DNA of 64,000 nt from Tenrec ecaudatus (taxonomy: Eukaryota > Chordata > Mammalia > Afrosoricida > Tenrecidae), in NCBI RefSeq assembly GCF_050624435.1, contig NW_027459438.1, positions 110,001 to 174,000 on the forward strand, read 5' to 3'. The notes under the pieces are model-generated. The model searched no databases and was not told the DNA's origin. It worked only from the letters and a program-made list of their open reading frames with translations. Numbering within the stretch: position 1 is the stretch's first letter; each line of letters opens with the position of its first letter. Below are positions 53,735 to 64,000 of this stretch, piece after piece. The position numbers and the translations under genes are program-made.

Positions 53735-53868
53735 CTTAGAGAAGTACTCTGTTCCTAACAAAAATGTCAGTGGTTCAAATCCATCAGTCATTTCACAGGA
53801 GAAATATGTGGTAATGTGTTTCTGTAAAGTATTGACACATGAACTCTACAGGACAGTTTTACTCTTTC
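53735..53868 (+). mobile_element. AfroSINE-like element abutting the CRE satellite
   Basis: cctaacaaaaatgtcagtgg ttcaaatccatcagtcattt matches the tRNA-sense orientation of the SINE (aaccgaaaggtcggcagttc gaatccaccagc), with the B-box-like ggttcaaatcc at about 53773-53783. gaactctacaggacagtttt actcttt corresponds to the following ggcagttctactctgtcc, slightly rearranged. The match stops at about 53868, exactly where satellite monomer text (cataattggtgggattataa) begins. The SINE 3' end is thus cut by the satellite edge. Confidence 0.65.
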
Positions 53869-56800
53869 ATAATTGGTGGGATTATAAATGGGGAACGTTA
53901 TAGGGCTATGGTGTTAGATAATTGTTTATGGCAAAAATCCATTTTGTCAAGCATGTCGCAAAGGTGATGACTTTATAATTGGGTGATTTCATAAATGTAG
54001 CATGTTTGGTGATGTCATAAAACAATTGTGATATCATAAGCAATCATGGGATGTCATAAAATTTTGACCGTAATAATCAAATAAGTGACATCTTAAAGCA
54101 ATTATGTGATGTCACAAAGCAATTATGTGCCGTCTTTAGTGACGTCATGAATGGAAGGTATTATACAGCTACCCTGTTGCATAGTGGGTGAATTCTTATG
54201 TCACACATTCGTTATAATTTGTGGCATCATAAATGGGGCACGTTATAGGGCTAAGGTGTGAGATAATGGGTAATGCCAAAGTCCAGTTTGTCTTACATGT
54301 CAAAACAGTGATGGCTTCATAGTTAGTTGACGTCATGTATGTGGCATAATTGGTGACGTCATAAAGCAATTGTGATGTCATAAAGCCATCATGTGACGTC
54401 AAAGAGAAATGAGGAGGCATCATAAAGCAATTATGCGATGTCAAAAAGTTATGTGGCGCGTTAGTGTCGTCATGAATGGGAGAGAATATACAGCTACATT
54501 GCGACATAGTGGCTAATTTCTTATGTCTTACATTCATTATAATTTTTGGAATCATAAATGGGAAACATTATAGGGCTAAGGTGTGGGACAATGGGTTGTG
54601 CCAAAAATCTAGTTTGTATAGAATTTCACAAAGGTGATGATGACTTCATAGTTGGATGAAGTTATAAATGTGGCATAATTGGTGACCTCTACAGGTTGGT
54701 GATGTCATAAATTTTGTGATGACATAAAGGAATTCTGTGATGCCAAAAAGCCATTACATGCCACGTTTTTGACATCATGAATGGGAGACATTATACAGCA
54801 CCTTTGCGACATAGTGGGTGACTCCTTATGTCTTACATTCGTCATAATTTTTGGCATCACAAATGGGGCATTTTAGTGCAATGTTTGGGACAATGGGTTA
54901 TACCAAAGGCCCAGTTTTTCTATCATGCCACATAGTTGATGTCTTCATAGTTGGGTGATGTCATAAATGTGGCATAATTGTGACGTCATTAAGCACTTGA
55001 GGTGTCATAAAGCAATCGTGTGACTTCATAGAGAAATTTTGTGATGACATAAATGAATTATGTGATGCCATACAGCAATTGTGTGTTTCGTTTATGATGT
55101 CATCAATGGGAGATATTATACAGGAACTTTGCGACTTGGGTGACTTCTTATGTCTTAAATGCATCATAATTTTTGGCATCATAAATGGGGCATCTTAGGG
55201 TAAGGTTTGGGACAATGGGTTATGCCAAAGGTTCACTTTGTCTAGAATGTCACTTAGTTGATGTCTTCATAGTGGTGTGACGTCATAAATGTCGCATTGT
55301 TGTGATGTCATAGAGCAATTCTGTAATAAAGCAATCGGGCGACGCCACAGAGCACTCGTGTGACATCAGAGCGCACTCGTGTGGCGTCATAGAGCTATTA
55401 GGCGATGTCATGAAGCAATTATGTGACGCGTTTGTGGCGTCATGAATGGGAGACATTAAACAGCTATTTTGCGACATAGTGGGTAAATATTTATGTCTTC
55501 CATTCAACATAATGGGTGGCACACTAAATGGGGCACGTTATAGGGTTAAGGTGTGGGACAATGGGTTATGCCAAAAATCTACTTTGTCGAGCATGTCATA
55601 TAGTTGGGTGACATCATAAATGTGGAATAATTGTGATGCCATTAAGCACTTGTGGTGTCATAGAACAATCGTTTGACGTCATAGAACAATCGTGGGACTT
55701 CATAGAGCTATTAGGCAATGTCATAAAGCAATTATGTGCCGCGTTTGTGGTGTAATGAATGGGAGACATTATACAGCTATTTTAGGATATAGTGGGTAAC
55801 TGCTTATGTCTTCCATTCACCATCATTGGTTGCATAATAAAAGGGGCATGTCAAAGTGCCAAGGCGTGGGACAATGGGTTACGCCACAATCTCGTTTGTC
55901 TACCATGTCACAAAGGTGATGAGTTCATAGTTGGATGAAGTCATAAATGTGGCATAATTGGTAACTTCATCAAGCAATTGTGATGTCAGAAAAAATCATG
56001 TGATGTCATACAGAAATTTTGTGAGGGCATAAAGGAATTATGTGATGCCGTAAAGCAATTATGTGCCGCGTTTGTGACATGACGTCATGAATGGGAGACA
56101 TTATACAGCACCTGTTCTCCCTTGTGGGTGACTTCTTATGTCTTAAATGCATCATAATTTTTGGCATCATAAATGGGGCATCTTGGGGTAAAGTTTGGGA
56201 CAATCGGTTATGCCAACGGTCCAGTTTTCTAGGATGTTACATAGTTGATGTCTTCATAGTTGGGTGAGGTCATAAATGTAGCATCGTTGTGACGTCATAG
56301 AGCAATTGTGGTGTCATAAAGCAATCGTGTGACTTCATATAGCAATTATGTGATGTGCCATGTCTTAAAGCAATTATGTACTGAGTTTGTGTCGTCATGA
56401 ATGGGAGAGAGTATACAGCTACTATGGAACACAGTGGCTAACTTCTTATGTCTTATATTCATTATAAGTTTTGGCATCATAAATGGGGCACCTTATAGGG
56501 CTATGATGTGGGACAATGGGTTATGCCAGAAATCCAATTTTTCAAGCATGTCACAAAGGTGATGACTTCATAGTTGGATGAAGTCATAAATGTGGCATAA
56601 TTGTGACATCATAAGGCATTTGTGGGGTCATAAAGCAATCCTGTGACGTCACAGAGCAATTATGTGACTACATAAAGCTATTATGCGATGTCATAAAGCA
56701 ATCATGTGCCATGTATGTGACGTCATGAATGGGAGAAATATTCAGCTACTATGCGACATAGTACGTAGATGCTTACGTCTTACATTCTTCATAATTGGTG

Positions 56801-59400
56801 GGATTATAAATGGGAAACGTTATAGGGCTATGGTGTTAGATAATTGTTTATGGCAAAAATCGAATTTGTCAAGCATGTCACAAAGGTGATGAATTTATAT
56901 TTGGGTGATTTCATAAATGTAGCATGATTGGTTATGTTATAAAACAATTGTGATATCATAAGAAATCATGTGACGTCATAAAAATGGGGCCATCATAATC
57001 AAATAAGTGACATCTTAAAGTAATTATGTGATGTCACAAAGCAATTATTTGCCGTCTTTAGTGACGTCATGAATGGGAGGTATTATACAGCTACCCTGTT
57101 GTATAGTGAGTGAATTCTTATGTCTCTCATTCGTTATAATTTGTGGCATCATAAATGGGGCACGTTATAGGGCTAGGGTGTGAGATAATGGGTAAGGCCA
57201 AAGGTCCAGTTTGTCCTACATGTCAAAACAGTGATGACTTCATAGTTGGTTGACATCATGAATGTGGCATAATTGGTGATGTGGCATAATCAGTGACCGC
57301 ACAAGTAATGGTGATGGCACAAAGCAATCATGTGACATGAAATATTTGAGGACATAAAGGAATTATGTGATGCCCTAAAGGTTTTATGTGCCACATTTGT
57401 GAGGTGACGTCATGGATGGGAGACATTATACAGAACATTTTCGACACAGTGGGTGACTTCTTATGTTTTAAATGCATCATAATTGTTGGCATCATAAATG
57501 GGGCATCTTAGGGTCAGGTGTGGGACAATGGGTTATGCCAACCGTCCAGTTTGTCAAGGAGGTCACATAGTTGATGTCTTCACAGTTGGGTGATGTCATA
57601 AATGTGGCATAATTGTGACATCATAAGGCATTTGTGGGGTCATAAAGCAATCCTGTGACGTCACAAAGCAATTATGAGACTACATAAAGCTATTATGTGA
57701 ATTCATATAGCAATCATGTGACGTCATGAATGGGAGAGAATATTCGGCTTCTATGCGACATAGTGCATAACTTCTTATGTCTTACATTCTTCATAATTGG
57801 TGGGATTATAAATGGGGCACGTTATAGGGCTAAGATGTGAGATAATGGGTAATGCCAAAGGTCCAGTTTGTCTTACATGTCAAAACAGTGATGACTTCAT
57901 AGATGGTTGATGTCATGAATGTGGCATAATTGGTGATGCCATAAAGCAATTGTGATGTCATAAAGCCATCATGTGACGTCAAAGAGAAATATGGAGGCAT
58001 CATAAAGCAATTATGCGATGTCAAAAAGTTATGTGCCGCATTAGTGTCGTCATGAATGGGAGAGAATATACAGCTACATTGCGACATAGTGGCTAATTAC
58101 TTATGTCTTACATTCATTATAATTTTTGGAATCATAAATGGGGTACGTTATAGGGCTAAGGTGTGGGACAATGGGTTATGCCAAAAATCTGGTTTGTCTA
58201 GCATGTCACAAAGGTGATGACTTCATAGTTGGATGAAGTCATATGTGTGGCATAATTGGTGATCTCATCAGGTATTGGTGATGTCATAAATTTTGTGACG
58301 ACATAAAGGAATTCTGTGATGCCATAAAGCAATTACGTGACACGTTTGTGACATCTGAATGGGAGACATTATGCAGCACCTTTGCGACATAGTGGGTGAC
58401 TTCTTATGTCTTACATTCGTCATAATTTTTGGCATCACAAATGGGGCACGTTAGGGTAATGTGTGGGTCAATGGGTTATTCCAAAGGTCCAGTTTGTCTA
58501 GCATGCCACAAAGTTGATGTTTCATAGTTGGGTGACGTCATGAATGTGGCATAATTGTGACGTCATTAAGCACTTGGGGTGTCATAGAGCAATCGTGTGA
58601 CTTCATAGAGAAATTTCGTGACGACATAAATGAATTATGTGATGCCATACAGCATTTATGTGCTTCGTTTATGACGTCATCAATGGGAGACATTATACAG
58701 CTCCTTTGCGACAGTGGGTGATTTCTTATGTCTTAAATGCATCATAATTTTTGGCATCATAAACGGGGCATCGTAGGGTAAGGTTTGGGACAAATGGTTA
58801 TGCCAAAGGTCCACTTTGTCTAGGATTTAACTTAGTTGATGTCTTTATAGTGGTGTGCCATCATAAATGTCGCATCGTTGTGATGTCATAGAGAAATTGT
58901 GGTGTCATAAAGCAATCGGGTGATGCCATAGAGCACTCGCGTGACGTCATAGATCACTCGTGTGAGGTCATAGAGCTATCAGGCAATGCCATACAGCAGT
59001 TATGTGCCGCGTTTGTGGCGTCATGAATGGAAGACATTAAACAGCTATTTTGCAATATAGTGGGTAGATATTTATGTCTTCCATTCACCATAATTGGTGG
59101 GATTATAAATGGGGCACTTTATAGGGCTAAGGTGTGGGACAATGGGTTATGCCAAAAATCAGCTTTGTCGAGCATGTCACATAGTTGATGTCTTCATAGT
59201 TGGGTGATGTCATAAATGTGGCATAATTGTGATGTCATTAAGTACTTGTGGTGCCATAAAGCAATCGTGCGACTTCATAGAGAAATTTTGTGATGACAAA
59301 AATGAATTATGTGATGCCATACAGCAATATTATGTGCTTCACTTATGACGTCATCAATGGGAGACATTATACAGCTCCTGTGTGACATAGTGGGTGACTT
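53869..59400. repeat. CRE-rich satellite, left part
   Basis: Tandem monomers of about 305-345 bp: the landmark catgaatggg(a) after gtgacgtcat recurs at about 54146, 54471, 54776, 55101, 55441, 55753, 56086, 56396, 56724, 57068, 57411, 57725 and 58051. Each monomer has two parts. One is a run of ~21-bp subrepeats (gtgacgtcataaagcaattat with variants). The other is a ~190-bp unique segment (gggagacattatacagct, gcgacatagtgggtgacttc, ttatgtcttacattcgtcat, aaatggggcacgttataggg, gggacaatgggttatgcc). Monomers are 70-90% alike by eye, more diverged than the macrosatellite. Minus-strand frames of 60-120 codons rich in SHN, SMT and CFM repeats are repeat artefacts. Confidence 0.93.
59391..59400. repeat. 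Target-site duplication, left copy
   Basis: tgggtgactt is satellite sequence (normally continuing cttatgtctta). It is repeated exactly at 60854-60863 on the other side of the insertion. Confidence 0.85.
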
Positions 59401-59762
59401 TTTTTTTTTTTACAATTTATTTTTATTTTAACAATTTATTGGGGCTCATACAATTCTTTTCACAGTTCATACATATACATACATCAATTGTATAAAGCAC
59501 ATCTGTACAGTCTTTGCCCTAATCATTTTTTTCTCTTTTCTTCTTTTACATTTTATTAGGGACTCATACAACTCTTACCACAATCCATACATATACATAC
59601 ATCAATTGTATAAAGCACATCCATACATTCCCTGCCCCAATCATTCTCAAGGCATTTGCTCTCCACTTAAGCTCCTTGCATCAGGTCCTCTTTTTTTCCC
59701 CCCTCCCTCCCCATACCCCCCTCCCTCATATGCCCTTGGTAATTTATACATCGTTATTTTGT
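59401..59762 (-). mobile_element. Antisense L1 3' end, left half of a double-tailed insertion
   Basis: Starts with poly(T) (13 T including the last two bases of the target duplication), the inverse of a poly(A) tail. It then contains two tandem, imperfect copies of an L1 3'-UTR terminal segment: atttattggggctcatacaa at about 59435 and ttttattagggactcataca at about 59550, each followed by catacatatacatacatcaa and ttgtataaagcacatc. A pyrimidine tract (ctccctccccatacccccct) follows near 59702, and the L1 part ends at gttattttgt. The type matches L1 3' ends I recall from tenrec. It joins WDR3 sequence head-to-head at about 59762. Confidence 0.8.
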
Positions 59763-60347
59763 AATATTGAAACCGTCAAAGCAGCTGAGAAGATCATGGA
59801 GGCTATAGAGCTGTACCGAGAAGAAACTGCAAACATAAAAGAGCACAACGCCATTTGTAAAGCCACAGGGAAAGAGGTTCCTCGTCCCATCAACCCCATC
59901 CTGATGGCTTATGGCAATATCTCACCTTCAGCGTATGTGTTACAGATTTTTAAAGGAGTCAAGTCCAGTGAGCTGGAAGAATCTCTGCTTGTGCTACCTT
60001 TTTCCTACGTCCCAGACATTCTTATGCTCTTCAATGAATTCATCCAGCAGGGCTCTGACGTTGAACTGCTGTGTCGATGCCTCTTCTTTCTCCTCAGAAT
60101 TCACTTTGGGCAGATCACAAGCAACCAAATGCTTGTCCCCGTGATAGAGAAATTAAAGGAAACGACTATTTCAAAAGTCAGCCAAGTCCGGGATGTTCTT
60201 GGCTTCAACATGGCTGCTCTGGATTACCTCAAGAGGGAGTGTGAGGCACAAAGGGAAGTCACATTTTTTGCCGATGCCACAAACAACTTGGAAGAGAAAA
60301 AGCGGAAGAGGAAAAAGAGGGAGCGGCTCATTCTAACATTGACTTAG
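59763..60347 (+). pseudogene. WDR3: WDR3 retrocopy, 3' part of the coding sequence (5'-truncated processed copy)
   Basis: The 194 codons read NIETVKAAEKIMEAIELY, later NPILMAYGNISPSAYVLQ, ELEESLLVLPFSYVPDI, GQITSNQMLVPVIEKLKE, LDYLKRECEAQREV and end KKRKKRERLILTLT before a TAG stop. This is the C-terminal Utp12 domain and basic tail of WDR3, a WD40 protein of the small-subunit processome (nucleolar 18S rRNA maturation); human WDR3 is about 943 residues, so roughly the last fifth is present. There are no introns, no frameshift and no stop, so insertion is recent. All WD40 repeats are absent, so it cannot replace WDR3. An upstream ATG in the L1 part (59676) opens a 223-codon frame fused to it; there is no evidence that it is translated. 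Confidence 0.9.
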
Positions 60348-60839
60348 AACTGAAATGACGCCTCCTGCTGCTCAGGACTTCCACACTGAGCAGCAGTAGC
60401 GCTGCCGCCACGGGACCGCCAACTAGAGGAGGACCGCGCTGTGACGTTGTCAGGATGTGCGCCCGGCTCATTTCTCAGAGTCTTTCTTTGTCCTCAATCC
60501 CCTGCAGAGGTTATTCCCTTTTTCTAGCAGGAAGCAAAGAATTATTTTTTAAATTTTGAATTTATTTCACTGGCACGGACATCAACCTGTAGAAACGTTG
60601 ACAAGCAGACAGTCTGATGGATGGCCTGTTAGCTCATGGTGTCAGGTTCTAGTCAGGTGCACCGTCCACTGTCTTGCCCTATAAATGCAGCCATGGACTT
60701 GGAGATTAGAGATTCTGAAAGTCAGAAGAGCATCCCTTAACGTAATCTCTCGCAGATTGTTTTATATCTGTATATAAAAAGACCATAAGTCTGTTTATAT
60801 TTCTGAATTAGGTTTTTCTAATTAAATAATAGCCAAACC
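60348..60839 (+). pseudogene. WDR3: WDR3 retrocopy 3' UTR with ATTAAA polyadenylation signal
   Basis: Follows the stop codon without interruption and is not satellite sequence. The variant polyadenylation signal ATTAAA lies at 60821-60826, 13-14 bases before the A-run, the normal distance. This supports insertion of a mature mRNA rather than genomic DNA. Confidence 0.85.
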
Positions 60840-60849
60840 AAAAAAAAAA
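60840..60849 (+). other. WDR3: Poly(A) tail of the WDR3 retrocopy
   Basis: Ten A residues, then caac, then the right target-site duplication. It is the second outward-facing tail of the insertion (the first is poly(T) at 59401). Confidence 0.85.
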
Positions 60850-60853
60850 CAAC

Positions 60854-60863
60854 TGGGTGACTT
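60854..60863. repeat. Target-site duplication, right copy
   Basis: tgggtgactt, identical to 59391-59400. It is followed by cttatgtcttaaatgcatca, so the satellite resumes in phase. Confidence 0.85.
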
Positions 60864-63800
60864 CTTATGTCTTAAATGCATCATATTTTTGGCATCATAA
60901 ATGGGGCATCTTAGAGTAAGGTTTGGGACAATGGGTTATGCCAAAGGTCCACTTTGTCTAGGATGTCACTTAGTTGATGTCTTCAAAGTTGCGTGACATC
61001 ATAAATGTCGCATCGTTGTGATGTCATAGAGCAATTCTAGTGTCATAAAGCAATCGTGTGACTCCATAGAGCACTTGTGTGACGCCATAGAGCACTTGTG
61101 TGACGTCATAGAGCACTCGTGACACGTCATAGAGCTATTAGGAAATGTCATAAAGCAATTATGTGCCGAGTTTGTGGCGTCATGAATGGGAGACATTAAA
61201 CAGCTATTTTGTGACATAGTGGGTAAATATTTATGTCTTCCATTCATCATAATTGGTGGCATACTAAATGGGGCACGTTATAGGGCTAAGGTGTGGGACA
61301 AAGGGTTATGCCAAAAATCTACTTTGTCTAGCATGTCACATAGTTGATGTCTTCATATTTGGGTGACGTCATAAATGTGGCATCACTCTGACGTCATATA
61401 GCAATTGCGGTGTCATAAAGCAATCGTGTGATGTCATAGAGCAATTATGTGATGTTATAAAGCTATTGGGCGATGTCATAAAGCAATTATGTGCCGCGTT
61501 TTTGACGTAATGAATGGGAGAGAATATACAGCTACTATGTGACATAGTGGCTTACTGCTTATGTCTTACATTCGTTATAAGTTTTGGCATTATAAATGGG
61601 GCATGTCATAGGGCTAAGGAGTTGGACAATGGGTTATGCCAAAATCTAGTTTGTCTACCATGTCGCAAATGTGATTATTTCATAGTCGGATGGAGTAAAA
61701 AATGTGGAATAATTGTTGACGTCATCAAGCAATGGTGATGTCAGAAATCCTCATGTGACGTCATAGAGAAATTTTGTGATGACATGAAGGAATTATGTGA
61801 TGCCATACAGCAATTATATGCCGTGTTTATGATGTCATCAATGGGAGATATTATACAGCTCCTTTGCAACATAATCAGTGACTTATAATGTGGTAAATGC
61901 ATCATCATTGTTGGTATAATAAATGGGGCATCTTAGGGTAAGGTGTGGGTCAATGGGTTATGCCAACTGTCCAGTTTGTCAAGGATGTCACATAGTGGAT
62001 GTCTTCATATTTGGGTGATGTCATAAATGTGGCATCATTGTGAAGTCATGAGGCAATTGTGGTGCCCTAAAGCAACTCTGTGACGTCACAGAGCAATTAT
62101 GTGATGTCATAATGCTATTATGCAAAGTCATAAAGCAATTACGTGCCGCGTTTGTGACGCCTTGAAAGGGAGAGAATATTCAGCTACTATGCGACATAGT
62201 GCGTAACTGTTATGTCTTATATTCTTCATAATTTGTGGGATTATAAATGGGCAACGTTATAGGGCTATGGTGTTAGATTATTGTTTAGGGTAAAAATCCA
62301 ATTTGTCAAGCATGTCACAAAGTTGATGACTTCATCATTGGGTGATTTCATAAATGTAGCATGATTGGTGAAGCCATAAGACAATTGTGACATCATAAAT
62401 AATCATGTGACGTCATAAAACAATGGGGCCCTGATAATCAAATAAGTGATATCTTATGATATCTTAATGCAATTACGTGATGTCAGAAAGCAATTATATG
62501 TCGTCTTTAGTGACGTCATGATTAGGAGATATTATACAGCTACCCTGTTGCATAGAGGGTGACTTTTTATGTCACACATTCGTTATAATTTGTGGCATGA
62601 TAAATGGGTCACGCTATAGGGCTATGGTGTGAGATAATGGGTAATGCCAAAGAACCAGTTTGTCTTACATTTCACAAAAGTGATGACTTCATATTTGGTG
62701 GACATCATGAATGTGGCATAATTGATGACATCATAAAGCAATTGTGATGTCATAAAGCAATCATGTGACATCAAAGAGCAATAAGGAGACATCATACAGC
62801 AATTATGCGATGCCAAAAAATTGTGTGCCATATTTGTGACGTCATGAATGGGAGAGAATATGCAGCTACATCCCGACATAGTGGCTAACTGCTTATGTCT
62901 TACATTCGTTATCATTTTGGGCATCAGAAATGGGGCAAGTTATAGGGCTAAGGTGTGGGACAATGAGTTTTGCCAAAAATCTGGTTTGTCTTGCATGTCA
63001 CAAAGGTGATGAATTCATAGTAAGATGAAGTTATAAATGTGGCATAATTAGTGGCGTCATCAAGCAATGGTGATGTCATGAATTTTGTGTAGACATAAAG
63101 GAATTCTGTGATGCCATAAAGCAATTATGTGCCGCGTTTCAGACGGCATGAATGGGAGACATTATACAGCACCTTTGTGACATAGCGGGTGATTTCTTAC
63201 GTCTTACATTCGTCAAAAATTTTGGCATCATACATGGGACATCTTAGGGTAATGTGTGGGAAAATGGGTTATTCCAAAAGTCCAGTTTGTTTGGCATGTC
63301 CTATTGTTGGGTGACGTCATAAATGTGGCAGAATCATGATGTCATAAAGCACTTGTGGTGTCATTAAGCAATCGTGTGACGTCATAGAGCATTCGTGTAA
63401 CGTCATAGAGGAATTAGGCAATGTCATAAAGCAATTATGTGCCAAGTTTGTGGCATCATGAATGGGAGATATTATACAGCTATTTTGCGACACAGTGGGT
63501 AACTGCTTATGTCTTCCAGTCATCATAATTGGTGGCATAATAAAAGGGACACATTAAAGTGCCAAGGTGTGGGACAATGTGTTATGACACAATTGAGTTT
63601 GTCTACCATGTCACAAATATGATGACTTCATAGTTGGATGAAGTAATAAATGTGGCATAATTGGTGACATCATCAAGCAATGGTGATGTCAGAAAGCACT
63701 CATGTGACGTCATAGGGAAAGTTTGTGACGACCTAAAGGAATTATGTGATGACATAGAGCAATTAGGTGCCAAGTTTGTGACGTAACGTCACGAATGGGA

Positions 63801-64000
63801 GACATTAGACAACTCCTTTTCGACCTAGTGTGTGACTTCTTATGCCTTAAGTGAATCATAATTGTTGGCATCATAAATGGGGCATGTTAGGAAAAGGTGT
63901 GGGACAATGGGTTATGCCAACGGTCTAGTTTGTCCACGATATCACATAATTGATGACTTCATAGTTGGGCGATGTCATAAATGTGGCTTCATTGTGACCT
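60864..64000. repeat. CRE-rich satellite, right part (runs off the window)
   Basis: Same monomer family as 53869-59400, in the same orientation and in phase across the insertion. The monomer at 60970-61260 has four consecutive agagcac(t)tgtgtgacg-type subrepeats. The run at 62225-62530 carries the aaataagtgatatcttat variant also seen near 54080 and 57000. No gene is present. Confidence 0.92.

Follow-up and report, generated by a model that had tools for sequence, protein, structure and literature searches.

A double-tailed, head-to-head insertion of L1 and WDR3 sequences inside one target-site duplication in a tenrec satellite array

The window, meaning the whole 64,000-nucleotide stretch of the Tenrec ecaudatus genome that was analyzed (positions 110001 to 174000 of contig NW_027459438.1, here C1870; the assembly, which was also the genome searched, has 2,140 contigs and 3.92 Gb in all), ends in a tandem satellite, and one monomer of this satellite is interrupted by a 1,453-bp insert at positions 59401 to 60853 (C1870 169391 to 170863 with its flanking repeats). 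The insert is set between in-phase copies of the 10-bp word TGGGTGACTT and consists of two pieces lying head to head in opposite orientation inside this single duplication: the 3' end of an L1 element in antisense on the left and the 3' end of a WDR3 messenger RNA (mRNA) in sense on the right (Table 1). Both tails point outward, with 11 T at the left edge and 10 A at the right edge, the latter at the WDR3 poly(A) site, and at least one base at the right edge belongs to neither the WDR3 tail nor the target. The same composite is found at a second locus, and it therefore predates its own duplication.

The first-pass annotation of this DNA had reported an exact 10-bp duplication at both edges, and the two copies are present. 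By itself, however, the repeat of TGGGTGACTT is weak evidence of a target duplication: the word occurs exactly six times in the window, four of them away from the insert edges, where they belong to further monomers of the satellite, and 21 times with up to one mismatch, compared with 6.3 expected, because it is part of the satellite. In such a tandem array the argument has to come from phase. The register of the array is about 326 bp at the insert, with the printed sites mostly 300 to 370 bp apart, and the end of the left flank and the start of the right flank meet at one monomer position, in register. All 24 of the homologous sites that were chosen by hand from BLAST ends in the window run uninterrupted through the insertion point, 4 with the exact TGGGTGACTT and the remaining 20 with variants of it. 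Additionally, a model of the empty site made by joining the flanks aligned across the corresponding point in 30/30 fetched loci at 81 to 91% identity. These loci are 30 of 355 matches to the left flank and overlap each other, so they do not count as 30 independent sites; six of them overlap the two occupied loci, which carry both halves and were scored on neighboring monomers, while the other 24 carry neither half. The phase rules out the duplication as a chance effect of the satellite.

The right half is, as annotated, the 3' piece of a WDR3 mRNA with its poly(A) tail. Residues 2 to 194 of its translation match human WDR3 751 to 943 (7mq8, E 2.5e-108), the translation has a Pfam Utp12 match, and the frame is open up to the natural stop. 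The parent WDR3 gene is on contig C1, where the corresponding sequence is split over separate exons, whereas the piece spans the exon junctions without an intron. It begins inside an exon, where the parent reads GAAAAC followed by TATTGAAACC, and it ends where the parent reads CCAAGATGTC, so the A-run of the insert is not genomic. Relative to the parent it carries 17 mismatches in 1,077 aligned bases and two gaps totalling five bases. Like a processed pseudogene, it thus lacks introns, has poly(A) at a genuine cleavage site and stands at a target duplication, which it has in common with the L1 half. A genome search with the piece gave eight matches, six in exons of the parent gene, one in the window and one on contig C139; this search returned no WDR3-only retrocopy. 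The fetched stretches over the WDR3 3' exons (9,901 and 6,801 bp, overlapping) contained no L1 of the insert's family, only 12-base chance matches. Because the join with the L1 falls inside a WDR3 exon, the composite is not a splice product, and an origin by splicing or read-through is ruled out by the mid-exon start together with the absence of this L1 family from the fetched stretches.

The left half likewise agrees with the annotated poly(T)-led antisense L1 3' end: read in reverse, positions 59401 to 59764 form a 3' end carrying an A-rich tail. Out of 1,365 candidate copies of its family in the genome, 40 were scored and 30 fetched; the 30 include both composites, leaving 28 other copies that were examined. 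By a crude similarity measure, 14 of these lose similarity at various upstream points, 13 are alike to the fetched edge and 1 has no value. Words shared from flank to flank mark target duplications in three copies (12 bp in L015, 17 bp in L018 and 17 bp in L023). The family was linked to a long reverse transcriptase frame through a genome search for RVT_1, in which 150 of 51,266 candidates were scored and several frames of 1,283 amino acids without stops were found; the DNA behind one of them, on contig C109, has an in-frame stop and then continues into the L1 3' region of the insert, and it is 92.8 to 98.9% identical to the fetched copies in 14 of 15 printed rows (73% for L020). The left half thus belongs to a 3' region contiguous with a long reverse transcriptase frame, in a family with A-tails, target duplications and 5' truncation. 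We take the family to be L1 rather than another clade of long interspersed elements (LINEs) from the first-pass annotation, the length of the 1,283-amino-acid frame and a C-terminal motif. No recognizable second open reading frame (ORF2) was present upstream of the fetched copies, because the 3' untranslated region (UTR) is long; adding two copies (L078 and L016) gives an estimate of about 2.8 kb for the L1 3' UTR of this genome. The L1 3' end of the insert also holds a tandem duplication (window 59420 to 59527 and 59538 to 59645, with 118-bp spacing, 81 to 85% alike), and, since the other fetched copies align along 59420 to 59645, this looks like a family feature.

Compared with each of the 28 other copies, the L1 half shows 9 to 17 differences over 348 to 358 bases, three columns of which are already WDR3. 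Against the column majority of the 28 it differs in 12 columns: 3 beyond the join, 1 directly on it, 2 in a C-tract, 4 in the tail and 2 in which the base of the insert is found in 9/28 and 11/28 copies. Three of the 28 copies (L015, L018 and L023) are 5'-truncated no more than about 6 nt from the L1 end of the insert, near a GAAGGGGGGAAGGGAG tract, and by our own estimate an even spread of ends over kilobases would give far fewer than that. This suggests that the L1 complementary DNA (cDNA) of the insert stopped at a habitual stop of the reverse transcriptase near a G-rich tract. Twin priming does occur in this family: of the three, L023 (read by eye) holds about 20 nt in inverted orientation, plus filler, within a single target duplication, and its internal join lies at the same stop site.

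The two halves meet at 59764/59765, or possibly as far as 59767, rather than at 59762 as annotated. Whether there is microhomology at the join, a check that had been proposed, depends on a key base that is G in 24 and T in 4 of the 28 other L1 copies; in two of the latter (L015 and L018) the T belongs to their own junction, and it is certain only in L017 and L028. With T in the source L1, the L1 part runs to 59767 and TAT is common to it and WDR3, as a microhomology; with G, the join contains two extra bases, AA. A second target duplication around one half, which would have spoken against a single event, was not seen, as no word of at least 5 bp is common to the join and either outer edge.

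Table 1. Positions of the insert, its parts and its target in the window
Feature	Position	Strand	Remark
Left 10-bp target-site duplication, TGGGTGACTT	59391..59400	.	In phase with the right copy
Poly(T), i.e., poly(A) tail of the L1 half	59401..59411	-	13-T run including the last two duplication bases
5'-truncated L1 3' end, antisense	59412..59764	-	Extends to 59767 if the TAT common with WDR3 is counted
Internal join	59763..59767	.	TAT (59765-59767) common to both if the source L1 had ATATTACAAAAT; otherwise AA is extra
WDR3 mRNA 3' piece, intronless, mid-exon start	59765..60839	+	Last 193 codons, stop at 60347, then 3' UTR
WDR3 poly(A) tail of 10 A	60840..60849	+	Parent gene without an A-run there
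CAAC between the WDR3 tail and the duplication	60850..60853	+	In the C139 copy, one C follows the A-run
Right 10-bp target-site duplication, TGGGTGACTT	60854..60863	.	In phase with the left copy
Satellite array, the insertion target	53867..64000	+	Runs on past the window end

The second composite lies on C139 at about 35.0759 to 35.0772 Mb and has both halves, whose outer ends agree with those of the window copy; thus, the halves were together before the two copies parted. Its left edge has an 11-T run, counted with the duplication bases as in the window, and it is 99.30% identical to window positions 56478 to 59764 and 99.43% identical from 59896 onward. In between (L011:3225-3300) it lacks window 59765 to 59895, which is 131 bp of WDR3, and has AG in its place. 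The left edge of this deletion falls exactly on the L1/WDR3 join, and a random edge would come within one base of it in about 0.4% of cases (own arithmetic). The 946 bp that both copies share have 17 clean differences, 10 on the parent side, 3 private to C139 and 4 private to the window, and this imbalance argues against a star (p = 0.027). We therefore prefer an ordinary later deletion in C139, which leaves the coincidence of the edge unexplained. It is very improbable that the composites on C1870 and C139 are instead two resolutions of one dual-primed intermediate, in which the end of the L1 cDNA would have joined the WDR3 cDNA at its tip on one strand and 131 nt inward on the other and the heteroduplex would then have segregated as two inherited forms, although this would explain why the edge lies exactly on the join.

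A third related stretch (L073), from C139:35986002 onward, is 99.46% identical to the window and starts abruptly at window 61040, 177 bp beyond the insertion; the array has thus undergone large duplications recently, one edge of which is near the insert. As a candidate for a nearby empty allele (C139, 35.986 Mb) it is uninformative, as it begins only there. Positions 1 to 41000 of the window are a macrosatellite with units of about 5.4 to 6.1 kb, 87 to 98% alike among the longest self-matches printed, which hold inner tandem repeats (GT-rich of 60 to 70 bp and GC-rich of 57/170 bp). An Rfam search of the whole window at gathering thresholds gave no matches.

The reading that best fits the insert, to which we give a probability of about 0.65, is the one proposed in the first-pass annotation: a single L1-driven event in which both cut target strands were extended on different polyadenylated RNAs, i.e., twin priming with two RNAs, or 'dual priming'. 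In this scheme the L1 endonuclease would nick the top strand after GACTT, and the 3' TT would prime synthesis at the poly(A) tail of an L1 RNA, giving a cDNA that would halt about 355 nt in, where some other copies of this L1 halt too. The bottom strand would be nicked 10 bp away, and its 3' end would gain at least one untemplated base and then be extended along a WDR3 mRNA, mobilized in trans, from its poly(A) tail; the two facing cDNA ends would then be joined through the short microhomology or the two extra bases to give the head-to-head chimera. The L1 half would be the first reaction and the WDR3 half the second, because GACTT ends in TT, which can pair with a poly(A) tail, while CACCCA cannot. 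Arrival of the halves in one event would also be consistent with the absence of half-only loci among those examined (none among the 30 satellite loci and none of the 28 other L1 loci in this satellite, in answer to the suggested check for a WDR3-only or L1-only intermediate), with the single duplication and with similar youth, as both halves look young, with no clear difference in age when their divergence is compared.

Several observations weigh against dual priming. The bottom-strand end on the WDR3 side (...CACCCA-3') cannot pair with poly(A) and is followed by at least one extra base, which is unlike ordinary priming. Compared with the L1 motif, cleaved between TTTT and AA as quoted in PMC2912911 (here and below, statements on cited papers refer to excerpts of them), the L1-side site ACTT/CT matches at 2/6 positions and the WDR3-side site CCCA/CT at 0/6. 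In 5'-inverted human and chimpanzee L1s, only 28/605 lack microhomology at the corresponding 5' junction and extra nucleotides occur in 3.9% (PMC2912911), so the WDR3-side junction would be of a minority type. With a source L1 carrying G at the key base, as in 24/28 copies, the internal join would lack microhomology as well and contain the two extra bases. The unoccupied sites are paralogous monomers, 81 to 91% identical to the joined flanks, and none is an empty allele, and the search for an L1-only locus took in 28 other copies out of 1,365 candidates. On account of the missing microhomology and the extra base at the WDR3-side junction, the probability of dual priming was lowered from 0.72 to the value given above, and that of its main rival was raised somewhat, from improbable to a level at which it is still clearly the less likely of the two.

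This main rival is the capture of a ready-made cDNA: top-strand target-primed reverse transcription of the L1 would have begun, and end joining would have ligated a finished WDR3 cDNA from elsewhere into the open break, so that the poly(A) side of this cDNA abutted the target and its truncated side the cDNA of the L1. The noncomplementarity of CCCA to poly(A) and the extra C at the junction do look like end joining, and twin-primed L1s are rarely without microhomology or with extra bases at that junction (PMC2912911). However, capture requires a free cDNA at the right moment, whereas extension from the second nick requires no additional molecule. L1 is also reported to prime at imperfect T-tracts (PMC3649969), a record that may not extend to ends without any T. 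On balance, capture is unlikely.

The alternative that the first-pass annotation itself had offered, two successive insertions, is disfavored and appears improbable. One retrocopy would have arrived with the 10-bp duplication and the other later, exactly at its 5' boundary and without a duplication of its own. Each half alone is an ordinary product of retrotransposition, and nested insertions are generally common; however, the second insertion must strike one exact position and leave no duplication, and the lack of a shared word of at least 5 bp between the join and the outer edges, of half-only loci among those examined and of a clear age difference all count against it. Less probable again is a fusion, in which independent insertions in the same phase of two monomers were brought together by a deletion that removed the intervening satellite and both 5' parts. 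The recurrence of the target word in the array (four further exact copies in the window) means that a same-phase duplication could arise twice, but the same pair of nicks would be needed in opposite orientation at poor endonuclease motifs, and the deletion would have to join within a few bases of the L1 position where 3/28 other copies end. Least probable of all is a single RNA in which antisense L1 was already joined to WDR3, either because an L1 had inserted into an exon of WDR3 on some allele or by RNA ligation. Retrotransposition of chimeric RNAs has been inferred (PMC13174262); however, the truncation of the copy would have to coincide exactly with the poly(U), neither the WDR3 genome search nor the fetched part of the gene yielded a source of this kind, and the WDR3 part begins mid-exon rather than at a splice site.

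We then compared the insert with known products of L1 activity. It resembles classical twin priming, as seen in 5'-inverted L1s, in having two oppositely oriented cDNAs joined head to head within one target duplication. In the classical form, however, both pieces come from one RNA, and the second cDNA is primed internally, usually with microhomology, whereas here the left piece is L1 and the right piece is WDR3, there are two tails and the target end on the WDR3 side is without microhomology. With template-switch chimeras (U6/L1 and similar) it shares the presence of two RNAs in one L1 insertion, but those have their parts in the same orientation with one tail, and the parts of this insert are opposite. 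Human mRNA and long noncoding RNA chimeras were catalogued by Law and Burns 2026 (PMC13174262): 15/17 are sense, leaving 2 antisense, and antisense mRNA/L1 chimeras were considered possibly more consistent with twin priming, as was also suggested for antisense transfer RNA chimeras. The likeness to such antisense chimeras lies in the L1 and the mRNA being oppositely oriented in one insertion. However, 15/17 of the catalogued chimeras map to the beginning of the transcript, while the insert described here has a poly(A)-primed mRNA 3' end and a tail on each side, a combination that was not found described in the excerpts of that paper.

The first-pass annotation had called the product rarely described. 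We found no report of such an insertion in the literature searched, which mostly left out subscription journals, and excerpts of PMC3024322, PMC12016303 and PMC12350158, which describe inversions and pseudogenes, contained no two-RNA double-tailed insertion; on the other hand, the idea is already in print (PMC2837659), and antisense chimeras are catalogued, as described above. Among the papers listed in one search (20 of 67), the term 'dual priming' was met only in PMC2837659, where Meyer, Srikanta, Conlin, and Batzer (2010) described 39 L1 loci with 5' poly(T) and put forward, as a speculation, that two mRNAs anneal to the two nicks, a process inseparable from twin priming in their data and for which later validation was hoped. 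Those loci were L1 only, so the RNAs could not be separated, and one of the two cDNAs would stay within the poly(A) tail, whereas in this insert cDNAs of two different RNAs lie within one target duplication and each RNA gives hundreds of bases. Thus, antisense mRNA/L1 chimeras are already known, and the new part is a double-tailed insertion in the form of twin priming whose two RNAs can be told apart. Two tails from recognizably different RNAs remove the ambiguity of the L1-only data, and the insert points to an mRNA supplied in trans as a template for extension of the second target strand, possibly even when the primer end lacks complementarity to poly(A); capture of a cDNA, if true instead, would be informative too. 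The signature of outward tails, different RNAs and one duplication can be searched for in other genomes, and such insertions could be missed wherever pseudogenes and L1s are annotated separately.

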